A stretch of 64,000 nucleotides of DNA from Sphaerolaimus hirsutus (lineage: Eukaryota; Nematoda; Chromadorea; Monhysterida; Sphaerolaimidae). Position numbers and translations under genes: made by a program. The DNA lies in the NCBI GenBank assembly GCA_964036195.1, contig OZ038454.1, positions 29,684,315-29,748,314 of the forward strand. The letters run 5' to 3'. The number at the start of each line of letters is the position of its first letter. Positions within the stretch are counted from its first letter, which is position 1. Positions 9,673-56,774 of this stretch are shown here, piece by piece. Below the pieces are notes generated by a model. The model had not been told where the DNA came from and ran no database searches. It worked only from the letters and a program-made list of their open reading frames with translations.

Positions 9673-9968
9673 TCACTCAGCGCCCCCACTAGTGGAAGGC
9701 GCTCCCCCCACGTGGCCCGGCTGTGGATGGGGCACAAAAGCGCCATCGAAGTGGTTCACCCTGAACACGAAGCAGGTGTTGCAGACGCGCACGCGGCGCT
9801 CGTGGCCCAGCTCGGGCAGGGCGAGGGCGTGCTGGCTGCACTGGGCGCAGAAGATGCGGCCGCAGTTGCGGCAGTGGTGCCGGCGGCGGGTCAGCGTGAA
9901 GGCGGTGCGGCAGCCCGTGCACTCGGCGCACTCGCTGTCGGGCACCCAGTACACCACTGGAGGGCCCA
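9673..9968 (-). CDS. Lst2 (ZFYVE28-like): LST2 last exon: FYVE zinc finger and C-terminus
   Basis: Contains all FYVE landmarks: WVPD (WxxD), four CxxC-type pairs (C-TGC, HHCRNC, FCAQC, VCNTC), the basic RRRHHCR patch that binds PtdIns3P, and the RVC motif. It ends [10 protein letters not shown] plus a short unconserved tail and a TGA stop at 9673-9675. A GGGACC-type hAT element starts 18 bp beyond the stop, so it probably lies in or next to the 3' UTR. Confidence 0.95.
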
Positions 9969-12900
9969 CTGGTGCGTTGCCTGAGCGGTGAGAGGCATGT
10001 CAGTGGGGTGGGAACTATTTTTTTGCACTTGGCGGAAAACGGAAACGGAAAAAATTTTGCCTGCGGAAAGCGGAAAGTTGACAGCCTAGTTGCGACTAAG
10101 CATGACTTTTTGCATTATATATTAATATATATATCATTCAGGGACGTACGCAGGATTTTTAAGCGGGGGGGGCGGATTGTATACGCAGCCCGGCGAATGG
10201 GGGGGGGCGGCGCCCCCCCCCCCCTTCAAATTTGGCCCTATAGTAAAGGAATGGAGCTATGGCGCTGGCGCCATTTGTAGGCGCCAGCCCCATGGCAGTA
10301 TTGGCGTTAGCGCTAGCGCCAACGTATACTACAGGGACGTACGCAGGGGGGGCGGGGGGGGGGGGCGCCCCCCCCGTTCCCGGGCCGGACAAAAAAAGTG
10401 CCAGAAATGGCACTTTCGTGAAGCGATTTTGTACCTACTTAGCAAAACTTTTGCGCGCAAGCGCGCATTTCCGCCCCCCACTCTATATAGAATTCATATT
10501 TTCGATTCCGGAGTGAAATCACCATTACAAGTGCCTTCAACGCAGTGCCCGGTACCTAAATTTAGGCGCAGAAGTACTTAGAGTACACGTTGGCGTTGGC
10601 GCCAACGCCAATAGGGTCATGGCGCTGGCGCCAATGAATGGCGCCAGCGCCATGGCCTCATTCCGTTTACTACAGGAGGAAATTTTAGGGGGGGGCACCG
10701 CCCCCCCCCCGTTCGCCGGGCTCTGTATACAATCCGCCCCCACCCGCTCAAAAATCCTGCGTACGTCCCTGGTATACTAAATGGGTATCTATTAAGACCT
10801 ATACCGTATTTCCTCGGAATACCCCCCTCTTTTGACCTCCCCTCTGGAGACCACTATGAAACAATCACCCCCCCTCGAAATACCCCCCCAAATTGAGTGT
10901 AAAGAGAACGTACATGCCAAATACTGCAGTTTGTGTTCTGCGTAGTGCAGAACACACGTTAAAACAATGTCGGAATCACGTTAGAACAGTGTTTATACCA
11001 TCTACGTACTAATATTAGTCCACATAACTTTATAAATGGTTTTTTTTTGTTGTATGTTTCGACGTCTGCGTACGTTTCAGACCACAATTTCGTACTGGGA
11101 TTTAAAAAATTTTCTTGTGAAATAATAACCCCCCCCCCCCCTCGAAGAGCAGTGCACTATTCCGCATCTAAACCCATCCCGCATGTTGACCCGGAACACA
11201 TTGAATTATACCTGACATGTTGAAAATAGGTAATAAAACACGTGACCTATTTATTTTGAAGGTGAAAATCTAAAAGAAGTAGGAAAATTCGGGAATTTTG
11301 GTAAAAATTAGGGTAAAATTGCTCAAAAGCGCTCCAGATAGCTAGATAGCTCGGCAATTTGCAGGTGTGGGGGTGTTCGACGGAATGTAGCAAAAAAATT
11401 TGTGCCAGGGATAGATAGATAGCTGGGCGGTTTGGGGTGGTGTTACCCACCCCTCTTTCTCACCCCTGCAGGCATAAGGTGTCTATAATGGGTCTACATG
11501 CGGAATGGGCTTTGATGCGGAATGGGCCCTAGCCCCCTCGAAATACCCCCCCCCCCTCTCGGGACCACTATGAAAGAATCACCCCCGGGGGGTATTTCGA
11601 GGAAATACGGTATATAGTTACTATGACCACGTTGGGCACTTTTATAATGCTGTTTGAACTCCTGAAATTATACATTAAACAACGGGGTAGGGTTTGCGGC
11701 TGCCCCCCCCCACCTGCGTACGTCCTTGATATCATTTTACCTGAAATTTTACAGTGTGCGCGAACCAGCACTAGGGTTCAAACGATATGACTTTTCGATA
11801 TCGATATTCGATATTCGATATTTTCTTCTGAAACTCGATATTCGATATCGATACGATATGGAACCTCGATATCGATATTCGATATTCGATATTGAAAAAT
11901 GGTCGATATTCGATATTCGATATTTCGATATTTTCGATATTCGATATTGCGATATGCTTTTGGTATAGCAAGGCATATTTCAAGTGGCATATTGTATTTT
12001 CATGTGATTGCACACATCTTTAATCATCTCTTTACTGAAATTTGAATGGTACAAGTGATTTTAACAAGCTTTACATCACTCAATGGTAGAAAATAGAAGA
12101 AAAACATGATGAATCAAAGTGTATCAGACAAATAACAATTGGTAGATATTACAGTTCATCCTAACCTAATTGCTTAAGGGCATGTTGCAGAAAAAAGTAC
12201 CGTATTACCTCGAATTATCCCCCCCCCCTTGAATTAACCCCCCCCCCCCTCGAATTAACCCCCCCTCAAAATGGGCTGGGGAAATAATAAACCCCCCCTC
12301 GAAATACCCCCCCCCCCCAAATACAGTGTAAACAGCATGTATACAACAAATAACACAGTGTGTGAACTGTATTATGCAGAACACACGTTAAAACCGATGA
12401 CTGAGTGATGTTAGGGGAGGGTTTATGTGTATATACAGTATTATATGCCTATAAACACTCATACGCCTCTATGACTATGACAATGTTGTATTTTTCTACG
12501 TCTGAGTACGGGGAATTTTGTAAAATTTCTGGCGAAATAATAGACCCCCCCCCCCTCGAATAAACCCCCCCCCCTCGAATTAACCCCCCCTCAAAATTTG
12601 CTGGCGAAATAATAAACCCCCATGGGGGTATTTCGAGGTAATACGGTATATCAGCGTTTTCTGGCTTCAAATTTAGCACTCCAACAACAATGCCATTATA
12701 AATACTGTACTTTTACTCATCAAATACAATACTTTAAGCACATCAGATCAACCATAAACATCTCAAAATGAAAATGAAAAGTAAATTTGGGGACACAATA
12801 CAGGTTCGATATATCGAAAAAATGGTCGATATTCGATATCGATATTCGATATTTTTTCAAAATTTTCGATATCGATATTCGATATTCGATATTTTTTCAA

Positions 12901-27878: not shown

Positions 27879-30800
27879 GTTCACTTTTCTAATTTATTTA
27901 ACTGACAGGTGTACCGCGTGATTTATGCTTATGCTTATTTTTACTATTTATTTATGCTTATTTGCCAATAAATGCAGCAAAAAATAAATGGTGATTTATG
28001 CTGGTGCGTTATAAAAAACGTTTTAACTAAAAAAGTTTTTTTTAACACGGTCATTAGAAAAAGCCTTTTTGACCATCTCTAGTATTGACAGCAGAAATCG
28101 TCATTTTCGTGTCGTAGCTCCACCGAAAGAAAACACGAAAATAGGTATTTACGTTTTGTGTGGTTTTACGTTGTGTTTTGTGTGTTTTGTTTTGTGTTTT
28201 TGTGGCCGTGCGCGTACACTAGTACATCATTTAAAATTGGGAAACTCAAGTATATTTTAAACACATTTGAGGTTAAGAGAAAGAACGATTTTTGATCGAT
28301 TTTTCAACTTTTTTATTCATTTTCTATATTAAATAGTGCGCATGTCATAATATAAAAATATTTGTATATTTTCTGTCATTATAACCCACTTTTGGGGCGT
28401 CAAAAAACAAATCACTCAGGAAAAAATATCCCCCTACCTCCCCCAATTTACCCCCCCCCCCAGCTCAATCTGAGGCGTCTGGGGACGAATCAGAAGGGGG
28501 TGAATTGTTCTTGCGTCACTTGCTGCGCTACCCCCGAGTGGGGGAAAGGGCCCCCCATTTCCGCTGCCAAGCCGTGGTCGATAAACAGTTCAAAGAGATC
28601 GATTTGAGCGCTTATTCGGGCAAATGGCTCGTGCTGTTCTTTTACCCCCTTGATTTGTTGGTTTTTGGAGGTTTTGGGTTGATTTTGAAGTTGCGCAGTT
28701 GAATGTTGAATTTACATTTGTCCAGCATGGTGCTAGGGTTCAAACAATATATCGTATCGAATATCGGATATCGACCATTTTTTAATATCGAATATCAAAT
28801 ATCGATATCAAATATCGACCATTTTTTCGATATATCGAACCTATATTGTGTCCCTAAAAAAAGTTATCATTTTCATTTTGAGATATTTATGATTGATCTG
28901 ATGTGCTTGATCTGATCTGAGAGTTGTATTAGATGAGTAAAAGTACAGTACTTATAATGTCATTTTTGCTGGAGTGCCTAATTTGAAGCCAGAAAATGCT
29001 GATATTCTATTTTTTGCAACATGCCCTTAGCAATCAGGTTATCAGTATGAACTGTAATATCTACCAATTGTTATTTGTCTGATACACATTGATTCATCAT
29101 GTTTTTTTTCTACAGTTTCTACTTTTGAGTGATGTAAACCTTGTTAACCTCACTTGTACCATTCACATTTAACTAAAGAGATGATTAACCATGCGTGCAA
29201 CCACATGAAAATACAATGTCACTTGAAATATGCCTTGCTATACCAAAAGCAAATCGCAATATCGAATATCGAGTATCGACCATTTTTTAATATTGAATAT
29301 CAAATATCGATATCGAGGTTCCATATCGTATCGATATCGAATATCGAGTTTCAGAAAAAAATATCGCAAATATCGATACCAAAAAGTCATATCGTTTGAA
29401 CCCTACATGGTGCTTGATTTTTTGATGGTAACCGGTCTGGTGCCACTCCCAGACCCTGTGAAAAGCCATGTAAAATGTCAAATGACATCCAATGTGTCAA
29501 AAGTGATGGAAAATGCTCTGCAAAATGACAACTCGGTTGACACTTTGCATGACATTTGATATTTTACAGGGTCTGGGAGTGCCCCCAGTTAGGCGGTGCT
29601 TACAGGAAAAATTAGTGGCGGCACAAAATTTATATTTAAAGAGACATATTTAAGGAAAAGGTTCCGTATATTGTGAGAAAAAGCAGTTAAGTATACATAC
29701 TACATGGGTAGGGAAGGGGGGGTTGGGGGTTACCCCCCCAAACCGCCCAGCTATCTACCCATCCCGGCGGCCGCTCAGCTATCTATCTATCCCGGAGGGA
29801 AAATTTTGGGCTAATGTCCCCTAACCCCCCCCCCAAATCGACCAGCTATCTATCTATCTGGAGCCATTTTTCAGAAACTATACCCCAATTTTCGCTCAAA
29901 ATCGCTATTTTTCGTACCTTTAGGCCCCGTTTACACGGATTTTTTGTGATGACTCAACATAACTTAAAAGTTCAATAAGTTGAGTAAAAAAGTTCCAAAT
30001 TCATGAGAAAAAGTAGTCAATTGTACGCTCTACCTAGGCGAATATACATGTCAAATTACAGAATCGTGCTTGTAGCTTTGACCTCTATATGTTTGAAACG
30101 ATTTTGCTGTTGTCGAAGGCTGTCGGGAGTAGGGTTGGCCGATGTTTTTTTTTAAACGTTTTTTTAAAAAAAACAACGTTTTTTTTAAAAAAAAAACATG
30201 ACGTCCGAAATGTTTTTTTAAAAAAAAAACATTGGCCGAAATTTTTAGTACTAAGCACTAGGTATTTTGCAAAATTTTTGCGCGCAAGCGCGCAATTTCA
30301 CACACAAATTGACATTGGTGGTTGTTTTCATTGGTTTTGTTGCATTTTTAGTATCAAAACATTCATTTCTATGTGCTACCATGGGTGAATAAGCCGACAT
30401 ATGTTGCTGTAATATATAATATTGAGGTAATGTGCTTCCATGTACCTCCACAGTGTGTAACTTCACTCCCAAAGTAACAACCTCCTTTTATAACCTTGTT
30501 TGATCACCATTCCGTGCCAAACTTTACCTGAAGTCACGAACATTCGACTATAAGGCGATATATGAACAATATGTCGACGAAAAATGGATATTTTTGACAC
30601 AAATCACCACTTATAATGCTATCCCATGGCTCCACAGCCATTATATGGTCATATTTAACATCACAGAGTATTGCCAGTGTCTGATATACCTATATATGTT
30701 GACACTAGGTCATATCTGGGAGCTTTTAAAAAAGAACGTTTTTTTTAAAAAAAAAACGTTTTTTTTTTTAAAAAAAAAACGTTTTTTTTTTTAAAAAAAA

Positions 30801-33800
30801 CATTGAGTTAAAAAAAAACGTTTTTTTTCCAACCCTAGTCGGGAGACTGTCCGACAACGCCCAAAAAATTTCAACCGTCTATAAGTCTAAGCTACAAGCA
30901 CGATTCTGCAATTTGACATGTATATTCGGATGAGAAGAATGTACAATTGACCACTTTTTCTCATGAATTTGAAACCTTTTTACTCAACTTATTGAACTTT
31001 TTAGTGATATTGAGTCGTCACACAAAATCCGTGTAAACGCGGCCTTATATAGATTTTCACCTCCAAAATCACTAGTTGATGCATCTAAGTGCCTATTTTC
31101 AGCTATTTTTAGTACTATATGTCCTTATATACCCATATTTCAACCATTTTTCACCTACTGAAGCGATTTTTCTCCTTTTCCTCCCTTCTATGCCTATATA
31201 TTGAACTCCCGCGAACCCCCCCCCCCAAACCCACCTCCCCTCCAAACTTCCCCTTCTTATAGGCAATTTGTGCTTTAGTTAATCGTATAAAGTGATAGTT
31301 ATTTAAAAAAACTGTTGTCGCGGCATTGGGCCCGCACGCACTAGTTGACATCAACGCCAACTGTCAACTGGTTCCGATCCCAATTGAAGGCTTGCTGACG
31401 AGCCAACGAACGCCGTTTAAATGCAAGCTTGAAATCAGGATCGGCACCAGTTGACATTTGGTGTCGATGTCAACTAGCGTGTGTGGGGCCAATGTCCCGC
31501 CGTTAGGGTTCAATCGATATGACATTTCGATATCGATATTCGATATTTTTTTCTGAAACTCGATATCGATATTCGATATTCGATATTTTTTCAAAATTTT
31601 CGATATCGATATTCGATATTGAAAAATGGTCGATATTCGATATTCGATACGATATATCGTTTGAACCCTACCCGCCGTCTACCTGGAATAACCCCCGCAG
31701 TACGTTCGTGTGCCCGACGGAAATCGCCGCATTCAGCGACCGCGCCGCAGATTTCGAAAAGCACCAGTGCGCAGTGGTCGCTTGTTCCACCGACTCGCAC
31801 TTTTCCCATCTGGCCTGGGTCAATACGCCCAGGAAGGAGGGCGGCCTGGTGCCAGTCCCGCACCCGGTCAAGTCAAAAGTCTAGTGTCAAATGTCGCCTA
31901 AAGTGTCTGGTGTCAAATTGTGTGAAAATTGTAAAAAAAACAAAGTGTGAAAATTTCAGTAAAACAATCTTTTCCGTTTTTTATCTTCTAATTGACATTT
32001 TACATGATATTTGACACTTGCCATTGCGCTTTGCAGGGTACGGGACTGCCCCCAGGGCGACATGAAGATACCTTTGTTGGCTGACTATAAGAAGGAAGTG
32101 TCCACTGCGTACGGGGTCCTTAATAAGGATGTGGGCGCCGCGTATAGGTTGTTTTTTTAATTTTTTATTGGAAAGTGGAGGTGTTTTGATACCCTATCCC
32201 AGTTGTTTAGCTCGTATTTATTCATCGCGGCCACACCAGTTTTCGGGCGGAAAAAGTTAAATCCTATACACTTGAGTACCCCAGAATATGGAGTCGAAAA
32301 TTGAAATGAATAAAAATTGAATCCGACTCAAACATATTTATCATTTTCTGAAATTACGGTCTATGCAAGTTAGGGTTCACACGGGACCAGTTTTTCGGAC
32401 CGGGACCGGGACCGGGACCAGAAATTTTCTAATGTCGGGACCGGGACCGGGACTGGGGGGTCGGGACCGGGACCGGGACCGGGACTAGGGTTGGAAAAAA
32501 ATCGATTTTTTTTAACGACCCCGATTTTTAAAAAAAAAAATCGATTTTTTTTAATAAAAATCGATTTTTTTTAATAAAAATCTATTTTTTTAAATAAAAA
32601 TCGCTGGGGTCAAAATTAGCACTATTTCTGCCTAAAATCGCGTCTGGGGGTAATAAATGCCATATAAATTGGTAGGGAATGCACACTTATGCTTTCTGTG
32701 CTAATATAAGTACTGTAGAGCTTCAGAAAAGCTTGAAAGTCAGTTATTTTTCAGTGTAAAAGTAATTAAATTGAATATTTGTGACGTGAATCACATTTCA
32801 TCTACCATTTGCAATTTTGTTTGCAGTAATGGCATGTTCTTGCTCAGAACAAAATATAAATGATATTGGAAGTGAACATGGATGCATTTGCATAAATGTT
32901 TGATGTGACAACACAAAAAACATAACTATAAATACTTCCTAAAATGATTCACAGCCTACCTTACATGCTTAAAAGCACACATAAATGGGTACTACACCCC
33001 CAAATTGGTTGTAAAAGCCATGTAAAAAGAAACTGATGGATTGTTTGCATGAAAGTGCGCGCTCGCGCGCAAAATTTTTGCATTTTACCCAGTGCTTGAG
33101 TACCAACATTTTTGACAGCGATTTTTTTTAAAAAAAATCGGTACGGGTGCTGCGATTTTTTTTTTTAAAAATCGGAATTTTTTTAAAAAAAATCGCTTAA
33201 AAAAAATCGCTTGCCAACCCTAACCGGGACTGGCTTTTTTCAATTGTCGGGACCGGGACCGGGACCGGGACTGGGGGGTCGGGATCGGGACTGGGATTTG
33301 CCGAACCAGGTACCGGCACCGCGGTATTATTTGAACCTTATTGGTATGTAATATCCAGCCAATGTTGTTCCACACACCTCCACTGTGAAGGACCACTCTC
33401 AATGTATCAGCCTTTTCTTATAACATTATTAAAGCAGTATTCCATTGCCATCTTCACTTGAAGTTGTGAATATAAATATGATGAAACGCAATGTACGCAG
33501 GATTTTTTTGGGAGGGGGGCGGCGCCAGTTGTAGGTGCCAACGCCATGGCAGTATTGGCGCTGGCGTTGGCGCCAACGTCTACAATATAGGTTTCTTTAT
33601 ATACCTATATTTCGTACTAGAATCATGTTGGGGACCTTTCTAATGCTGTCACATTATGGAAAAATACATAGTAATCATTGGCTGGGTATTTGCGCACTAG
33701 CGCGCAAAAAATTTTTAGATGTTCCTACAAAATCGCTTTAGAAAAGTGCCATTTCTGGCAAAAAAAATTTGAAAAATATGTTTTTTCCATCCCTTGTCGG

Positions 33801-34429
33801 GATCGCTATAAAATTCCGGGACCGGGACCGGGACCGGGACTGGGTGGTCGGGACCGGGACCGGGACTGGCTTTTTTTAATTGTCGGGACCGGGACCGGGA
33901 CCGGGACTGGGGTGTCGGGACCGGGACCGGGACCGGGACCGCCCCAGTCCCGACTTTTTGCCGAACCATGTACCGGGACCGCGGTGCCGTTTGAACCCTA
34001 ATGCAAGTGCGTCACCACCACGTTTCAAACTGTCGTCGTGCAAAAAGTTCTACACAATTGACATTAAGAGAAAATCGCCGCAAAACATCACAAATCAGTG
34101 ATCCAAAATAACCGTGCAGGGGCCTGTTTCTAATCGACCCCAAGGGCGTGGTGCGGCACATGCAGTGCAACGATTTCCCCGTGGGCCGGTCCGTCGACGA
34201 AGTGCTCCGTTTGTTGGCAGCCTTCCAATTTGTAGAGAAACACGGAGAAGGTGGGTTCGAGTTTTGCGTCGTTTTTTGACTTTTTTAAATCGAGGTTTAA
34301 ATGTGTTCTATGGGTTCCATTTTTTTCAAATTTTCAGTATGCCCCGCAAACTGGAACCCGGCCGACAAAAAAGCGACAATCAAACCTGATCCGAAGGGGT
34401 CTAAAGAGTTCTTCAATAAACATGGCTGA
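27752..34429 (+). CDS. Prx3 (PRDX3-like): Typical 2-Cys peroxiredoxin, Prx3-like (mitochondrial type), six exons
   Basis: Exons 27779-27878 (start uncertain), 28464-28656, 31701-31848, 32056-32147, 34120-34250, 34338-34429; all phases agree. It should reduce peroxides using a peroxidatic Cys in FTFVCPTE and a resolving Cys in VCPANW of the partner subunit. From the Met at 27845 the protein has 229 residues; with the Arg-rich upstream reading it would carry a mitochondrial-like presequence. The C-terminus (TIKPD...SKEFFNKHG) resembles insect Prx3 as I remember it. The GGLG sensitivity motif is split by intron 3 but restored on splicing (EGGL|GDMK). The usual YF motif reads FF. Cytosolic Prx1/2 is the alternative. 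Introns 2 and 4 are full of hAT-like elements, and intron 3 is itself an inverted-repeat element. Confidence 0.93.
28464..28656 (+). CDS. Prx3 (PRDX3-like): Prx exon 2
   Basis: Begins after a long C-tract acceptor (CCCAG) and reads ...[40 protein letters not shown]. It ends GATTT|GTTGGT so that joining the next exon gives the invariant FYPLDFTFVCPTE. Confidence 0.93.
28734..29405. mobile_element. hAT-like element A5 (TCGATA arrays)
   Basis: Perfect 8-bp duplication CATGGTGC at 28726-28733 and 29406-29413. In Prx intron 2, 69 bp after exon 2. Confidence 0.93.
29440..29588 (+). mobile_element. Introner-family copy inside Prx intron 2
   Basis: 149 bp beginning CTG|GTGCCACTCCCAGACCC and ending GGGTCTGGGAGTGCCCCCAG. 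It has the same ends as the Prx intron 3 element with a better preserved inverted repeat, so it may be younger. It lies within an intron and carries GT...AG ends of its own. Confidence 0.85.
29922..31047. mobile_element. GTTTACAC foldback element G2, interrupted by C2
   Basis: TTA-flanked GGCCCCGTTTACACGGATTT...AAATCCGTGTAAACGCGGCC. The 3-bp TTA flank and ends suggest PIF/Harbinger; that assignment is inference. Contains C2 (30130-30837). Confidence 0.82.
30130..30837. mobile_element. hAT-like element C2 (TAGGGTTGG)
   Basis: Perfect 8-bp duplication GTCGGGAG at 30122-30129 and 30838-30845. Inserted into the middle of a GTTTACAC foldback (29922-31047). Confidence 0.93.
31504..31670. mobile_element. 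hAT-like element A6, 167-bp minimal form
   Basis: Ends TAGGGTTCAATCG...GTTTGAACCCTA, perfect duplication CCCGCCGT at 31496-31503 and 31671-31678. The unique core is missing: only the hexamer arrays and termini remain, so these are apparently enough to transpose. The right duplication ends 22 bp before Prx exon 3. Confidence 0.93.
31701..31848 (+). CDS. Prx3 (PRDX3-like): Prx exon 3 with the peroxidatic cysteine
   Basis: Reads [18 protein letters not shown] ... [25 protein letters not shown]. The Cys in VCPTE is the peroxidatic residue. An unusual second Cys occurs in VVACSTDS, where Val is common. Acceptor CCGCAG; the donor is CTG|GTGCCA, i.e. the end of an inverted-repeat element. Confidence 0.95.
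31849..32055 (+). mobile_element. Introner-like element that is intron 3 of the peroxiredoxin gene
   Basis: The 207-bp intron begins GTGCCAGTCCCGCACCC and ends GGGTACGGGACTGCCCCCAG, which are inverted repeats of one another. Nothing lies between the repeat ends and the exons: the left repeat supplies GT and the right supplies the AG acceptor. The core has TGTCAAATGT-type short repeats shared with the other copies listed here. Confidence 0.88.
32056..32147 (+). CDS. Prx3 (PRDX3-like): Prx exon 4
   Basis: Reads [20 protein letters not shown] then [10 protein letters not shown]. Acceptor TGCCCCCAG, donor TATAG|GTTGTT. Completes the GGLG motif begun in exon 3. Confidence 0.94.
32371..34000. mobile_element. 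hAT-like element B3 (GGGACC arrays), hosting another hAT
   Basis: TAGGGTTCACACGGGACC...GTTTGAACCCTA, perfect duplication ATGCAAGT at 32363-32370 and 34001-34008. A TAGGGTTGG-type element (32486-33222) is inserted in one GGGACC array. Internal GAACCTTA at about 33340 and a degraded CAGGGACG-type piece near 33490 show further layers. Occupies most of Prx intron 4. Confidence 0.9.
32486..33222. mobile_element. hAT-like element C4 (TAGGGTTGG) nested in B3
   Basis: TAGGGTTGGAAAAAAATCG...CGCTTGCCAACCCTA. Its duplication ACCGGGAC (32478-32485, 33223-33230) is made from the GGGACC array of the host element. Confidence 0.95.
34120..34250 (+). CDS. Prx3 (PRDX3-like): Prx exon 5
   Basis: Reads [18 protein letters not shown] then [25 protein letters not shown]: the conserved IDP-G and PVGRS-DE-LRL region. 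Acceptor GTGCAG, donor GAAG|GTGGGT. Confidence 0.95.
34338..34429 (+). CDS. Prx3 (PRDX3-like): Prx exon 6 with the resolving cysteine
   Basis: Reads [20 protein letters not shown] then [10 protein letters not shown] and TGA. The Cys of VCPANW is the resolving residue. Acceptor TTTCAG. Confidence 0.95.
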
Positions 34430-44600: not shown

Positions 44601-47455
44601 GCATATATGGTAGGCAGTGGTGTGAATGACAATGCCAAGCAGCCCATTGCGCGCTACCTAAATGAATCTACAGCATTGTTTTGGATGCCAAATTAATCCA
44701 ACGTTTCTGGCATCCGTTGTTTTTGGTGTTTTGGGTCATTTTGTGAAGTGTCAGGAAAAAAAATTTGAAAACCAATTTTTTTTTATACCTGAATCCCGAT
44801 CCCAAAAAAACGCCAATCCCGATCCCAAAAGGTCAATCCCGATCCCGAAATCTCAAAAAGCCAATCCCGATCCTGATCTCGAAATGCCAATCCCAACCCT
44901 AATCTTGAAATCTCAAAACAATCCCAATCCCGATCCTTAAAAGTAAATCCCGTTTGAACCCTACTAGCACCCTAACCTAACCGCTAGACGACAGAGGCGG
45001 CTGGACACTAGTTTTCACACGAAATTTCGAAAACTCATAAATGAGCTTTAAACGTGCTTGAGTTTTCCACAGTGACTCATTTTTAATTTCCGTCAACTGT
45101 AGTTGACAGCCACCTCATTGTAGAAAACGCAAATGCGTTCTAAGCTGATCTATGAGTTTTTGAAATTTCCTGTGAAAACTAGTGTGTGCAGGCACAATAA
45201 TAAACACTTTCCCGGTCACATCCGGCCCCCTATTTTTCATTTTACTTGTGACATCCTATCTCCAGTTCCAGGGCGCGCCAGAAACTGAAACTTGGGGGAG
45301 ATATTGGCGCAACCCCCTTCTACTTTGCATGAATTCGGGCGTCGCGACGACCACTTACAGGGTGGGCCCGCTAAGTGCAGCATTTTTATTGGCTGTTCTG
45401 GTGTCCCGCACAGGTCCAGCACCCACTTATTTCTGAGCTGTGGGAGGGGCAGAGTTGCGAAAGTGTATTTACACTTACCCAAAATACCCGGGTAAATGGG
45501 TATTTATATTTACACTTACACTTACACTTTCATAAAATACCCATACACTTTTTTTACACTTTCCTGAGCAAAATACCCGGGTACAGAAAGTGTATTTTTT
45601 CTTTCAGATGGCCCTGCTTTATGCTATTGAGAAAGCATAAAATAGGGTCATGTACAAAAAATAACTGCACATGAAGTTATGCATTGAATGTAGAAGATTT
45701 GGCAAATGTACAAACTAGCCTTTGATCTCCAACCTTTGATCAGTACTCATGGTATTCTACAGTTTCATCATACTTTTGTAAAAAAAACAAGATCAATGGA
45801 AATTCACCAGCTGGACACAAAGTCAACTGGCTTTTGCATTGACATTTGCTGCATGTCCATTCTTGCATTTAAACTGTGTATCGCATTGCTTAATCAGTAA
45901 AATATCAACACTGAAAAAGTGCCATTATTAGGGAACTTGATACCACTACAGTATTTGTTACAGTCCGAAATGTTTCATAAAATGCAGTAAAATGTGAAAT
46001 AATGCATAAAAATGACAAATAAATTGATCTAAAGGTGAAAACAGTGGTGTTTTCTGATGCTCAACAGTGAGAGCCTTTTCTAAAAAAATTTTTACACTTA
46101 CACTTTTATTTACACTTTCCTAGGTATTTTTAAAATACCTTACACTTTTAGTATTCATACTCAAAATTTGGAAAGTGTATTTACACTTACACTTACACTT
46201 TCCAAAAATACCGGTATTTTAACAACTCTGGGGAGGGGTATGAATCAAAAATTTTGGGGATGTATTACCAACACCCATCCCCTACTATACACTATTCAAT
46301 TATGTGATATTAATGTGAAAAAGAAAAAAAAATTATCTTATTCTCCATAAAACCCCACCTCCCTTTAGATAGGTGACGAAAAATTCACTTTTTATAACTT
46401 TTTTTATTAGACACTTTAAAAGCTGGTTTACAATACTTTAAAGGGAAGGGTTTGATGTTCAAAGTTATGTAAAGAACCATACTTCTAAAATGCCTGCATT
46501 GCAAAATTTACTTGGGGGGAATTTTATGACATCATAATGACATCATTGCAGGAACAAAAATTTAGAAAATTTACACTTTGAAATTCCCCCCCCCAAGTAA
46601 ATTTTGCAATGCAGACATTTTAGAGGTAAGGTCGTTACATAACTTTAAACATCAAACCCTCCCCTTTAAAGTATTGTAAACCAGCTTTTAAAGTAAAAAA
46701 AGTTATAAAAAGTGAATTTTTTGTCACCTATCTGATGGGAGGTGGTGTTTTTTAGAGAATAAATTACTTTTTTTTATGTTTCACATTAATATCACATAAT
46801 TGAATAGTGTATAGTAGGGAATGGGTGTTGGTAACACCCCCCCAAAATTTTAGATTTATATCCCTCCCACAGCTCAGAAATAAGTGGGTGCCGGATCTGT
46901 ATGGGACACCATGTATAATTGTCTTCACAGAGGCTTCACACACATCCAGCCTGCTTTCGAATGCATCACACCCATTCTTTACTGCGATTGCAAACGCACG
47001 CATCGTCGTTGGTAACGCAGTGAGCCGCAGTGAGCACCCATCTGTCTCCGATGATGGCACCCCCGCAGCCGTTGACCAGCACCGTCCAGGGGTACGAGTG
47101 GGGGGTCGCTTCGACTCCGTGAGATATACCCTGGTTCACCCCCACCACCTTGCCGCCTTCGAAGCGCAGAGATGGGGGGTGCTTCTTGGACGACACCCCG
47201 CAGTCCTGGGGCACACTCGCAGCGCCTGCAATGTGACCTGTACTGTAGTGTGTCAAATGTAATGCGATGTGTCAAATGTGATGAAAAATGTCAAATGATC
47301 ACTGCAAAACTAGAGGTAAGTTTGCCATTTTGCATGATGTTAGACACTTTGCATGGCATTTGACATTTGACAGGCCACTTTACAGGGTCTGTAAGTGGCA
47401 CCATGGAAAATGCTAGTGGAAGAAGGAATAGGGTTATGGACAGTAGACGCAGCAT
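35487..47455 (-). CDS. Secreted chymotrypsin-fold (S1) serine protease 1, six exons
   Basis: Exons in coding order: 47455-47402 (signal peptide), 47205-46983 (His), 41814-~41635 (Asp), 41211-41132, 36512-36358, 35660-35487; about 285 residues. The triad regions are visible: LTAAHC, GKDIALI and GDSGS. An activation-type N-terminus, ISHGVEATPHSYPW, follows a short pro-segment, and RPICLP and GWG are in their usual places. Counting back from the active Ser, the S1-pocket position 189 is Gly (GICAGDS), so trypsin-like specificity is unlikely; an elastase- or chymotrypsin-like preference is inferred. GDSGS replaces the usual GDSGG. The exon 3/4 junction is not fully resolved. It is likely extracellular, perhaps digestive. 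Its inverted paralogue starts 9.2 kb away, head to head. Confidence 0.9.
36358..36512 (-). CDS. Protease 1 exon 5 (GWG loop to the S1-pocket wall)
   Basis: Reads WGYIHPNQTATTTLQQDVYR, VNKKLCMQIYNDDRPGR, CVTGDMIGKGICA. Acceptor TGCCAG, donor GCG|GTTGGC. Length 155 nt, identical to the paralogous exon at 57987-58141. Confidence 0.88.
36717..37162. mobile_element. Inverted-repeat element with GCAGGATTCTCTCC ends
   Basis: AGCAGGATTCTCTCCGACCT...AAGGTTGGAGAGAATCCTGC, arms of about 60 bp continuing with GGTTCTCTACAATTAATACC. In protease 1 intron 4. Confidence 0.8.
37185..37718. repeat. Tandem array 1 in protease 1 intron 4 (unit about 29 bp)
   Basis: About 17 units built on AAAATGGCACCCCCTGGGGA plus CCCCCC. 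Strand-asymmetric: almost no G runs except GGGG on the plus strand. Confidence 0.92.
37718..38130. repeat. Tandem array 2 (unit about 30 bp)
   Basis: About 14 units built on AAACTCAGCCCCTAATTTGG plus AAACTCCTGT. Follows array 1 without a gap; a few units reappear at 40385-40560 after array 3. Confidence 0.92.
38130..40385. repeat. Tandem array 3 (unit about 110-125 bp)
   Basis: Roughly 16-18 units containing TTCAGGGTTATGGTAATGTA, GTGTCAAAATGGAGTGCATA and CAATCAGAAACCCACAAATG in that order, with mixed unit lengths suggesting a higher-order repeat. Inside protease 1 intron 4. Confidence 0.92.
41132..41211 (-). CDS. Protease 1 exon 4
   Basis: Reads DEVRPICLPTESDDFRN then QEGLKLIAA. PICLP is the conserved segment before the GWG loop. 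Donor GCAG|GTAAAT gives a Gly codon with exon 5, so the junction reads AAGWG. Acceptor CGCAG at 41212; the frame also stays open about 90 bp upstream. Confidence 0.78.
41635..41814 (-). CDS. Protease 1 exon 3: catalytic Asp
   Basis: Reads RCPACMWATFVALHDKVK, DAGIKYDAEKVIVHDEYTS, NGKDIALIKLKEKNRVQV. DIALI is the S1 Asp motif. Acceptor ATGCAG. The 3' end is uncertain: G|GTTTTT at 41635, CAA|GTTGGT, or AA|GTTGAA at 41664, the last being the only one in phase with exon 4 as placed. Confidence 0.82.
41942..43034. mobile_element. hAT-like element C3 (TAGGGTTGG), hosting a CAGGGACG element
   Basis: Perfect duplication GAAATAAC at 41934-41941 and 43035-43042. Element E3 (42081-42536) is inserted in its core. 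Confidence 0.93.
42081..42536. mobile_element. hAT-like element E3 nested in C3
   Basis: CAGGGACGTATCCAGGATTT...CTGGATACGTCCTTG, perfect duplication TGTGGAGC at 42073-42080 and 42537-42544. Core with GGCGCTAGCGCC palindromes and G/C tracts. Confidence 0.93.
43160..44211. mobile_element. hAT-like element N1 (CAGGGTTGG, TTTTATTTTA-rich ends)
   Basis: CAGGGTTGGTTTTATAAAAA...TTTTGCCAACCCTG, perfect duplication CTCATGAT at 43152-43159 and 44212-44219. The core contains a TGTCAATTGTCATG inverted-repeat module (about 43515-43971) ending GGGACTGCCCCCAG. Confidence 0.93.
44234..44963. mobile_element. hAT-like element D3 (GGGATC arrays)
   Basis: TAGGGTTCAAACAGGATCCC...CGTTTGAACCCTA, perfect duplication CTAGCACC at 44226-44233 and 44964-44971. 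In protease 1 intron 2. Confidence 0.93.
45398..46914. mobile_element. Foldback element carrying J
   Basis: Arms TGGTGTCCCGCACAGGTCC...GCACCCACTTATTTCTGAGC and its inverted copy at about 46860-46914; the turn is near 46560. Element J (45450-46230) is inserted in the left arm. The right end is about 70 bp from protease 1 exon 2. Confidence 0.8.
45450..46230. mobile_element. hAT-like element J (CAGAGTTG, TTACACTTTC arrays)
   Basis: CAGAGTTGCGAAAGTGTATT...TATTTTAACAACTCTG, perfect duplication GGGAGGGG at 45442-45449 and 46231-46238. Terminal arrays of ACACTTACACTTTC. Inserted in a foldback (about 45398-46914). Confidence 0.93.
46983..47205 (-). CDS. Protease 1 exon 2: pro-segment and catalytic His
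   Basis: Reads DCGVSSKKHPPSL, then ISHGVEATPHSYPWTVLVNG and CGGAIIGDRWVLTAAHC. The His of TAAHC is the general base. The leading DCG Cys could tether the pro-segment after activation. Acceptor GTGCCCCAG; donor CGCA|GTAAAG, chosen because phase 1 fits the next exon. Confidence 0.88.
47206..47401 (-). mobile_element. Introner-like element forming intron 1 of protease 1
   Basis: The 196-bp intron starts GTGCCACTTACAGACCCTGT and ends GAGTGTGCCCCAG. Both ends align with the family ends, and the core contains TGTCAAATG repeats and a GACATTT hairpin. It is more diverged than the Prx copy. Confidence 0.8.
47402..47455 (-). CDS. Protease 1 exon 1: signal peptide
   Basis: Eighteen codons, MLRLLSITLFLLPLAFSM: one Arg then a long hydrophobic core, a classic secretion signal. 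Donor ATG|GTGCCA coincides with the end of an introner-like element. A TATA box lies about 80 bp upstream. Confidence 0.88.
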
Positions 47456-56675: not shown

Positions 56676-56774
56676 GTGCCACTCCCAGACCCTGTAAAAT
56701 GTCCTGTCAAGTGTAAAATGTCATGCAAAGTGTTAAAAGTCATGGAAAATGTCAAAGGACCAGTATAAAAATTG
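56676..56774 (+). mobile_element. Introner-like element, left end, at the start of intron 1 of protease 2
   Basis: Begins directly after the signal-peptide exon with GTGCCACTCCCAGACCC, then GTCAAGTG/TCATGCAAAG repeats, and runs into the N gap. Its right end is not visible. Confidence 0.75.

Follow-up and report, generated by a model that had tools for sequence, protein, structure and literature searches.

Results

The peroxiredoxin locus

The window (the whole stretch of 64,000 nucleotides that was analyzed) contains a peroxiredoxin gene on its forward strand, the second intron of which holds a free copy of a repeat family and the next intron of which coincides with another copy extended by three bases. 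The features that concern us are as follows.

28657..31700, + strand: peroxiredoxin intron 2 (GTTGGT..CGCAG), which holds the free family copy (sequence, protein alignment)
29440..29585, + strand: free family copy within intron 2 (family profile, E 8.9e-39)
31701..31848, + strand: peroxiredoxin exon (sequence, PDB alignment)
31846..31848, + strand: left target-site copy CTG, the exonic Leu codon of the GGLG motif (sequence, PDB alignment, flank table)
31849..32052, + strand: element copy of 204 bp in the peroxiredoxin gene (family profile, E 2.7e-22)
32053..32055, + strand: right target-site copy, now CAG, supplying the AG 3' splice site (sequence; class CTG/CAG)
32056..32147, + strand: peroxiredoxin exon, then donor GTTGTT, with the end placed by eye (sequence, PDB alignment)
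47206..47401, - strand: second introner-like intron, in a trypsin-like gene, placed by eye (family profile, E 3.2e-31)
56676..56753, + strand: left part of a family copy in a second gene, at ..LPLAFSL/ (family profile, E 1.9e-23)

Here and below, a slash within a sequence motif marks a junction. The intron at 31849-32055, read directly from the window sequence, starts GTGCCAGTCCCGCACCC and ends GGGTACGGGACTGCCCCCAG; the exon on its 5' side ends GGCGGCCTG and the exon on its 3' side starts GGCGACATG. Joining three peroxiredoxin exons (one ending at 28656, 31701-31848, and 32056-32147) produced a 93-residue fragment that aligned to PDB peroxiredoxins without gaps (best match 1.9e-41; the two best alignments were inspected). 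Since the joined exons match solved peroxiredoxins in this way, the junction EGGL/GDMK is fixed by the protein, which bears out an earlier note on this DNA that had used this motif to place both splice sites and had held that the spliced product carries no extra codons. The note had also taken the terminal repeats of the element to be the splice sites; this holds on the 5' side, where the donor GT is the first two bases of the element, and fails on the 3' side, where the acceptor AG comes from a target duplication (see below).

The element in the peroxiredoxin gene has its A end, GTGCCA, toward the 5' side of the gene and its B end, TGCCCC, at the other side, and it folds with -59.2 kcal/mol (z -4.9), none of 200 shuffled sequences being equally stable. 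The free copy of intron 2, which the earlier note had located at 29440-29588, consists of the element proper (29440-29585) flanked by CTG (29437-29439) and CAG (29586-29588). The family profile that matched these copies was built from 54 copies, all outside the window, and contained neither the peroxiredoxin copy nor that of intron 2; on the reversed window its best match was 1.5e-8, and weak matches of the profile were therefore disregarded.

The intron at 47206-47401 lies between a signal-peptide exon MLRLLSITLFLLPLAFSM and the mature part DCGVSS.. of the trypsin-like gene (Trypsin, 1.1e-10, downstream); it starts GTGCCACTTACAG and ends GTGCCCCAG, and its B end has decayed. The gene with the copy at 56676, a copy readable in its left part only, has a signal peptide nearly the same as that of the trypsin-like gene. 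The insertion occupies the corresponding position in both, which suggests that it is older than the duplication of these genes. Elsewhere, the window holds a FYVE zinc-finger exon (9673-9999, - strand, 4.3e-22) and blocks of simple repeats (CGATATTCGATAT, TTTTAAAA with ACG, and GGGACCGGGACC) at 28734-29405, 30140-30840, 31504-31670 and 32390-34000. These blocks are bounded by TAGGGTT.. and ..AACCCTA and resemble additional foldback elements that have an end sequence in common.

A large family of near-complete palindromes

A genome-wide search for the family ends, which the earlier note had proposed, returned 23,342 matches to a 17-base end pattern (at most two mismatches) in the 348 Mb genome, whereas the reversed pattern matched 180 times. 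An intact copy was mostly counted twice, since its two ends typically differ by only two bases, which puts the family at the order of ten thousand copies. The family consensus (189 bp, 62 copies aligned) has terminal inverted repeats that make it one long hairpin: over 94 positions its arms mismatch only twice (92 complementary), at positions 2 and 4 counted from the ends, in the stretch that is GT on one side and CCCC on the other. Owing to this sole asymmetry, one end is GTGCC and its counterpart GCCCC. Conservation of the GTGCCA end is partly a matter of construction, given that copies were picked by it; the opposite end could have been symmetric, yet in most copies it is not. Copies with GGGGCA at both ends lie outside the sample. 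The consensus also includes a near-consensus donor, CCCT/GTAAAA, 18 nt from the A end and an ACAG/GG 19 nt before the right end of the intron; used together, they could delimit a nested intron, with just the terminal arms left behind.

The flank analyses below refer to 97 copies drawn from loci on one contig retrieved with the exact A-end pattern, their neighbors in the fetched stretches, and the window, a set that includes three segmental-duplicate pairs recognized by their flanks (L049/L051, L050/L052, and L087/L088). These flanks had a G+C content of 0.53, compared with 0.41 for the window and the 10-kb loci overall (p 1e-38), a composition that is exon-like here.

Two observations concern the assembly itself. 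The mitochondrial contig C762 (locus L104) encodes a COX1 with TGA as Trp and with AGA at positions where other animals have Ser, which indicates an invertebrate-type code. The 18S genes that were found by pattern lie only on the small contig C70 (loci L102-L103); they look non-animal and may come from a contaminant or parasite in the assembly.

Target duplication and element ends

Identical 3-bp flanks were present in 59 of the 97 copies and were CNG in every case (CAG/CAG 31, CTG/CTG 25, CGG/CGG 3), which argues that the element ends at TGCCCC (32052 in the peroxiredoxin copy) and duplicates a CNG target. The last three bases of the peroxiredoxin intron are not the element's own, the final CAG being the right-hand copy of the 3-bp duplication. 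No empty site occurred among the loci analyzed, and a peroxiredoxin paralogue on contig C3 aligns only to residue 42 of 80, that is, short of the intron junction.

Two classes of MITE were considered and rejected. PIF/Harbinger MITEs have a 3-bp duplication of TWA, whereas the duplication here is CNG; CACTA (CMC) MITEs end in CACTA or CACTG, whereas the ends here, read inwards, are GTGCCA and GGGGCA. The Harbinger-like DDE_Tnp_4 has 163 matches in the genome, many with nearly identical scores, and these are perhaps a young family; the match that was read (L105) apparently contains two ordinary introns. As an autonomous partner DDE_Tnp_4 showed no link to the elements: of the 15 matches listed for contig C1, the nearest is 3.9 kb away from a listed exact element end, and for the other 14 the distance to such ends is 23 kb or more, which is approximately the chance expectation, the lists of ends being incomplete.

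Copies inside conserved coding exons

After filtering, 56 of the 97 copies were retained, and 43 sense peptides from 43 copies, with frames set by eye, were sent to Pfam; these and the peroxiredoxin copy are the 44 copies tested. With the element and one duplication copy removed, a protein-family match spanned the junction in 13 of the 44, which ties these 13 to a coding exon and is no estimate of the exonic share of the family. Two of the 13 (Na/K-ATPase and ALKBH7) come from the PDB search alone. The junction-spanning matches were distributed as follows.

CTG/CTG copies: DEAD helicase (4.9e-20), Rcd1/CNOT9 (2.4e-57), Sugar_tr (GLUT; 1.9e-17), Oscp1 (4.4e-17), Calpain_III (1.7e-4), and, in the PDB, ALKBH7 (4.4e-22)
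CAG/CAG copies: Oscp1 (second copy; 3.4e-19), Carn_acyltransf (2.1e-16), Cation_ATPase_C (1.6e-10)
CTG/CAG copies: AA_permease (4.2e-6), AMP-binding (2.2e-12), and, in the PDB, Na/K-ATPase (1e-26) and peroxiredoxin

Similar introns hence occupy unrelated positions in different genes, two of them in OSCP1. The matched stretches on both sides of the junction were of equal length in nine of the 13 (DEAD, CNOT9, Sugar_tr, both Oscp1 copies, AA_permease, Na/K-ATPase, ALKBH7, and peroxiredoxin), and three alignments that were inspected are gap-free (Na/K-ATPase for its best match, ALKBH7, and peroxiredoxin), so that nothing appears to be added or lost at these junctions. Length differences were seen in the other four (Calpain_III, Carn_acyltransf, Cation_ATPase_C, and AMP-binding). 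No junction-spanning Pfam match was found for 23 of the sense peptides, and weak one-sided Pfam hints (a zinc finger in L041 and PI-PLC-Y in L086) were left uncounted. At the sequence level, the abundance of the family, its short target duplications, and the restoration of the protein by exact removal support the proposal of the earlier note that this is a mobile family that makes introns.

Read-through translation of the insert was rejected, since it is barred in 15 of 15 copies: 13 have in-frame stops, and L062 and L069 are open but out of frame. A target CAG gives an exact intron of the GT-AG type. A target CTG gives GT...TG, and no shift within the duplication turns it into GT-AG, yet such copies sit in conserved genes.

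The alternative that survives best, although we think it unlikely, is that splicing of CTG/CTG copies uses internal GT and AG sites and leaves a short in-frame peptide, only the copies ending in CAG being exact introns. Internal GT/AG pairs that keep the frame and leave extra bases occur in 15 of 15 copies examined, and pairs that are in frame and free of stops occur in all seven CTG/CTG copies tested, where they would keep 9 to 99 nt. Codon-adding introners are, moreover, reported in Fig. 2F of Gozashti et al. (PMC9860276). In the peroxiredoxin copy the internal routes would add 6, 18, 30 or 42 nt, and one of them uses the donor 18 nt inside the element, which is GTAAAA in the consensus. The usual donor is GTRAGT, and GTAAAA is nearer to it than GTGCCA is. 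However, internal splicing would add several residues to tightly conserved stretches such as GAL/VKTDEQE of CNOT9, and it leaves the gain of AG at the extreme right end (see below) unexplained. The protein argues instead for exact removal of the CTG/CTG copies in CNOT9, OSCP1, ALKBH7 and the DEAD-box gene, insofar as this can be read from sequence, and a functional 3' splice site of TG has been reported from human introns (PMC2374985).

Change of the intronic CTG toward CAG

The flanks reveal a one-way pattern. Where the left copy is CTG (39 of 97), the right copy is CTG in 25, CAG in 10 (the peroxiredoxin copy among them) and something else in 4; where the left copy is CAG (40 of 97), the right copy is CAG in 31, CTG in none and something else in 9. 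A few flank pairs with decayed ends are doubtful, for example L024 1659 (CTG/CAG) and both L013 3139 and L078 (CGG/CAG). Exact-ended copies in the first 22 Mb of contig 1, which overlap the 97-copy sample and are hence non-independent of it, were CTG/CTG in 16 cases (17 less one spurious span), CTG/CAG in 4, CAG/CAG in 23 and CAG/CTG in none. Genome-wide, the exact counts of CAG and CTG were 1399 and 1207 at left ends, which also take in the right ends of fully symmetric copies, and 1515 and 967 at right ends (chi-square p 1.3e-7).

In peroxiredoxin and Na/K-ATPase the exonic CTG encodes a Leu common to the best solved relatives, and it is therefore the intronic copy of the duplication that changed. 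Furthermore, CTG/CAG copies (n=10) had a median arm identity of 0.61 compared with 0.755 for CTG/CTG copies (n=25; one-sided p 0.007) and were also less identical to the consensus (one-sided p 0.002), so by sequence divergence they look older. Five CGG/CAG copies had a median arm identity of 0.89 and were no older by this measure; here, the change from CGG to CAG may be CpG decay. Among 12 right-hand copies that are one base off CTG, 10 were CAG, one CGG and one CTA. As T to A is one of nine possible changes and accounts for 10 of the 12, mutational bias alone would be a poor explanation, and selection may have favored the AG.

One could suppose that CTG/CAG copies are the original ones, in which the element has CTG...CAG ends of its own and no duplication. 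CTG and CAG are mutually complementary and would extend the palindrome, but CTG/CTG, CAG/CAG and CGG/CGG flanks dominate (the 59 copies above) and CTG/CAG copies are the more decayed, which makes this idea improbable. We consider instead that the acceptor AG of the peroxiredoxin copy was probably gained by mutation.

Orientation and the mode of removal

Another explanation is that a transposon later entered an old, ordinary intron and its ends met the splice sites by chance. Free copies do occur in ordinary introns, as shown by 29440-29585 in intron 2 and by an element of L054 in a GTGAGA..CGCAG intron (identified by eye). We nevertheless hold this explanation to be very improbable, given that both ends coincide with the protein junction in 13 of the 44 tested copies, in unrelated genes, with the duplication spanning the junction.

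All 13 homology-supported copies are in sense orientation, and none of 30 antisense-frame peptides (from 27 copies) had a Pfam match. A codon model trained on 12 copies recognized by eye, one of which (L026 4874) has no Pfam match, made confident assignments for 13 of the 97 joined flanks; 13 of these 13 were sense (seven being training members that were left out in turn), and joined flanks under the threshold scattered over both strands. An initial unsupervised codon model had been dropped because it settled on a wrong optimum and assigned the two peroxiredoxin flanks to different strands. Sense orientation is not absolute, since an antisense element (L054 351-542, contig C1 near 8.149 Mb) sits in an apparent exon ..VTYQ/TPPLNPSY..RPIYACPYCHSACF/GTAAGT, which we take by eye to be LITAF-like; Pfam gave no confirmation for this exon. 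On the gene strand, this element would be GG..AG if removed exactly, or GT-AG with two extra codons if an internal GT were used.

Somatic excision of DNA, as with the internal eliminated sequences of ciliates, would leave one duplication copy whatever its letters and so account for harmless CTG/CTG copies in conserved exons, but it should be indifferent both to gene strand, contrary to the orientation data above, and to AG, while the right CTG is seen to become CAG and the reverse is not seen, and we give it very little credence.

Discussion

A model of intron birth

The intron of the peroxiredoxin gene is probably an introner: a short foldback DNA transposon, non-autonomous, that makes an intron where it inserts, in this case by a CTG insertion that later gained its AG. 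In our model, the element, presumably mobilized by a transposase acting in trans, would insert at a CNG trinucleotide and duplicate it. The initial GT of the A end would become the 5' splice site, and the right copy of the duplication, following a run of C, would close the intron, so that loss of the element together with one duplication copy would restore the mRNA exactly. A CAG target in the direction of the gene would yield a GT-AG intron immediately, while a CTG target would yield a GT...TG intron that is apparently tolerated and that would later often acquire AG in its intronic copy (CTG to CAG). The conserved Leu of GGLG has the exonic CTG as its codon, and the peroxiredoxin intron would therefore be a matured CTG insertion.

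In the RNA, the near-complete palindrome would place the two splice sites side by side, and the two mismatches of the consensus, its only ones, are found at the splice-site end of the stem. Extended to the family, the model describes some 10,000 whole-palindrome introners, half of which start as GT...TG, are removed exactly with an RNA hairpin replacing a proper 3' splice site, and convert singly to GT-AG. The two mismatches would then be an adaptation that turns one symmetric transposon end into two different signals, a 5' splice site on one side and a 3' splice site rich in pyrimidines on the other. We put forward this extension tentatively and rate its chances as slightly short of even.

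The origin of introns is an old question, and if the extended model is true, the family would be a natural time series of the birth of spliceosomal introns and of their gain of a second splice site. The exonic copy of the duplication keeps the original letters and the intronic copy changes, leaving a dated mark on each insertion. Consequently, the family could be used to measure directly whether AG is required when an intron arises, at what rate it is gained, and how much the hairpin contributes to splicing.

Comparison with known systems

By the tests that we ran, the family would be classed as a DNA-transposon introner. Such introners are known in Micromonas, Aureococcus and others from the survey of Gozashti et al. 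2022 (PMC9860276), which found introners in only two animal groups. Like those introners, the elements described here are short and non-autonomous, have inverted repeats and target duplications, and become introns, with one splice site from the element and the other from the duplication; a 5' site brought by the element and a co-opted 3' site are also seen in Fig. 2C of that survey, although the example there, from Chrysochromulina, lacks inverted repeats and has duplications of 4 bp. Unlike the surveyed introners, the element here is palindromic throughout and duplicates a 3-bp CNG; roughly half of its insertions begin with no AG, and its copies grade from TG to AG. The survey gives 5 to >2,000 copies per family and genome, compared with the order of 10,000 here, a figure that counts intronic and non-intronic copies alike.

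The introner elements of Amoebophrya (PMC7789003) also have hairpin-forming inverted repeats and direct repeats across the exon-intron border (3-5 nt there), and many have non-canonical ends backed by RNA-seq. They are described as lacking inverted repeats specific to a family and as having highly varied splice dinucleotides, whereas the present elements form a single dominant family in which the GT end is fixed and the duplication is CNG. Abundant non-canonical introns also occur in the genome of another animal, the larvacean Fritillaria borealis (PMC13326754). In that genome U2AF is duplicated and 95% of introns deviate from GT/AG, whereas the few ordinary introns inspected by eye here look GT-AG, the departure being confined to the 3' end of new copies. 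In human U2-type introns, TG 3' splice sites are alternative ones, verified in 36 genes (PMC2374985), whereas in the present family an intron made by a transposon would start out with TG. The earlier note had not recognized the family as a described one, and our search of the literature, conducted without preprints and most subscription papers, likewise found no published account of it. Introners as such are known; what is new is the design of this family and its apparent maturation series.
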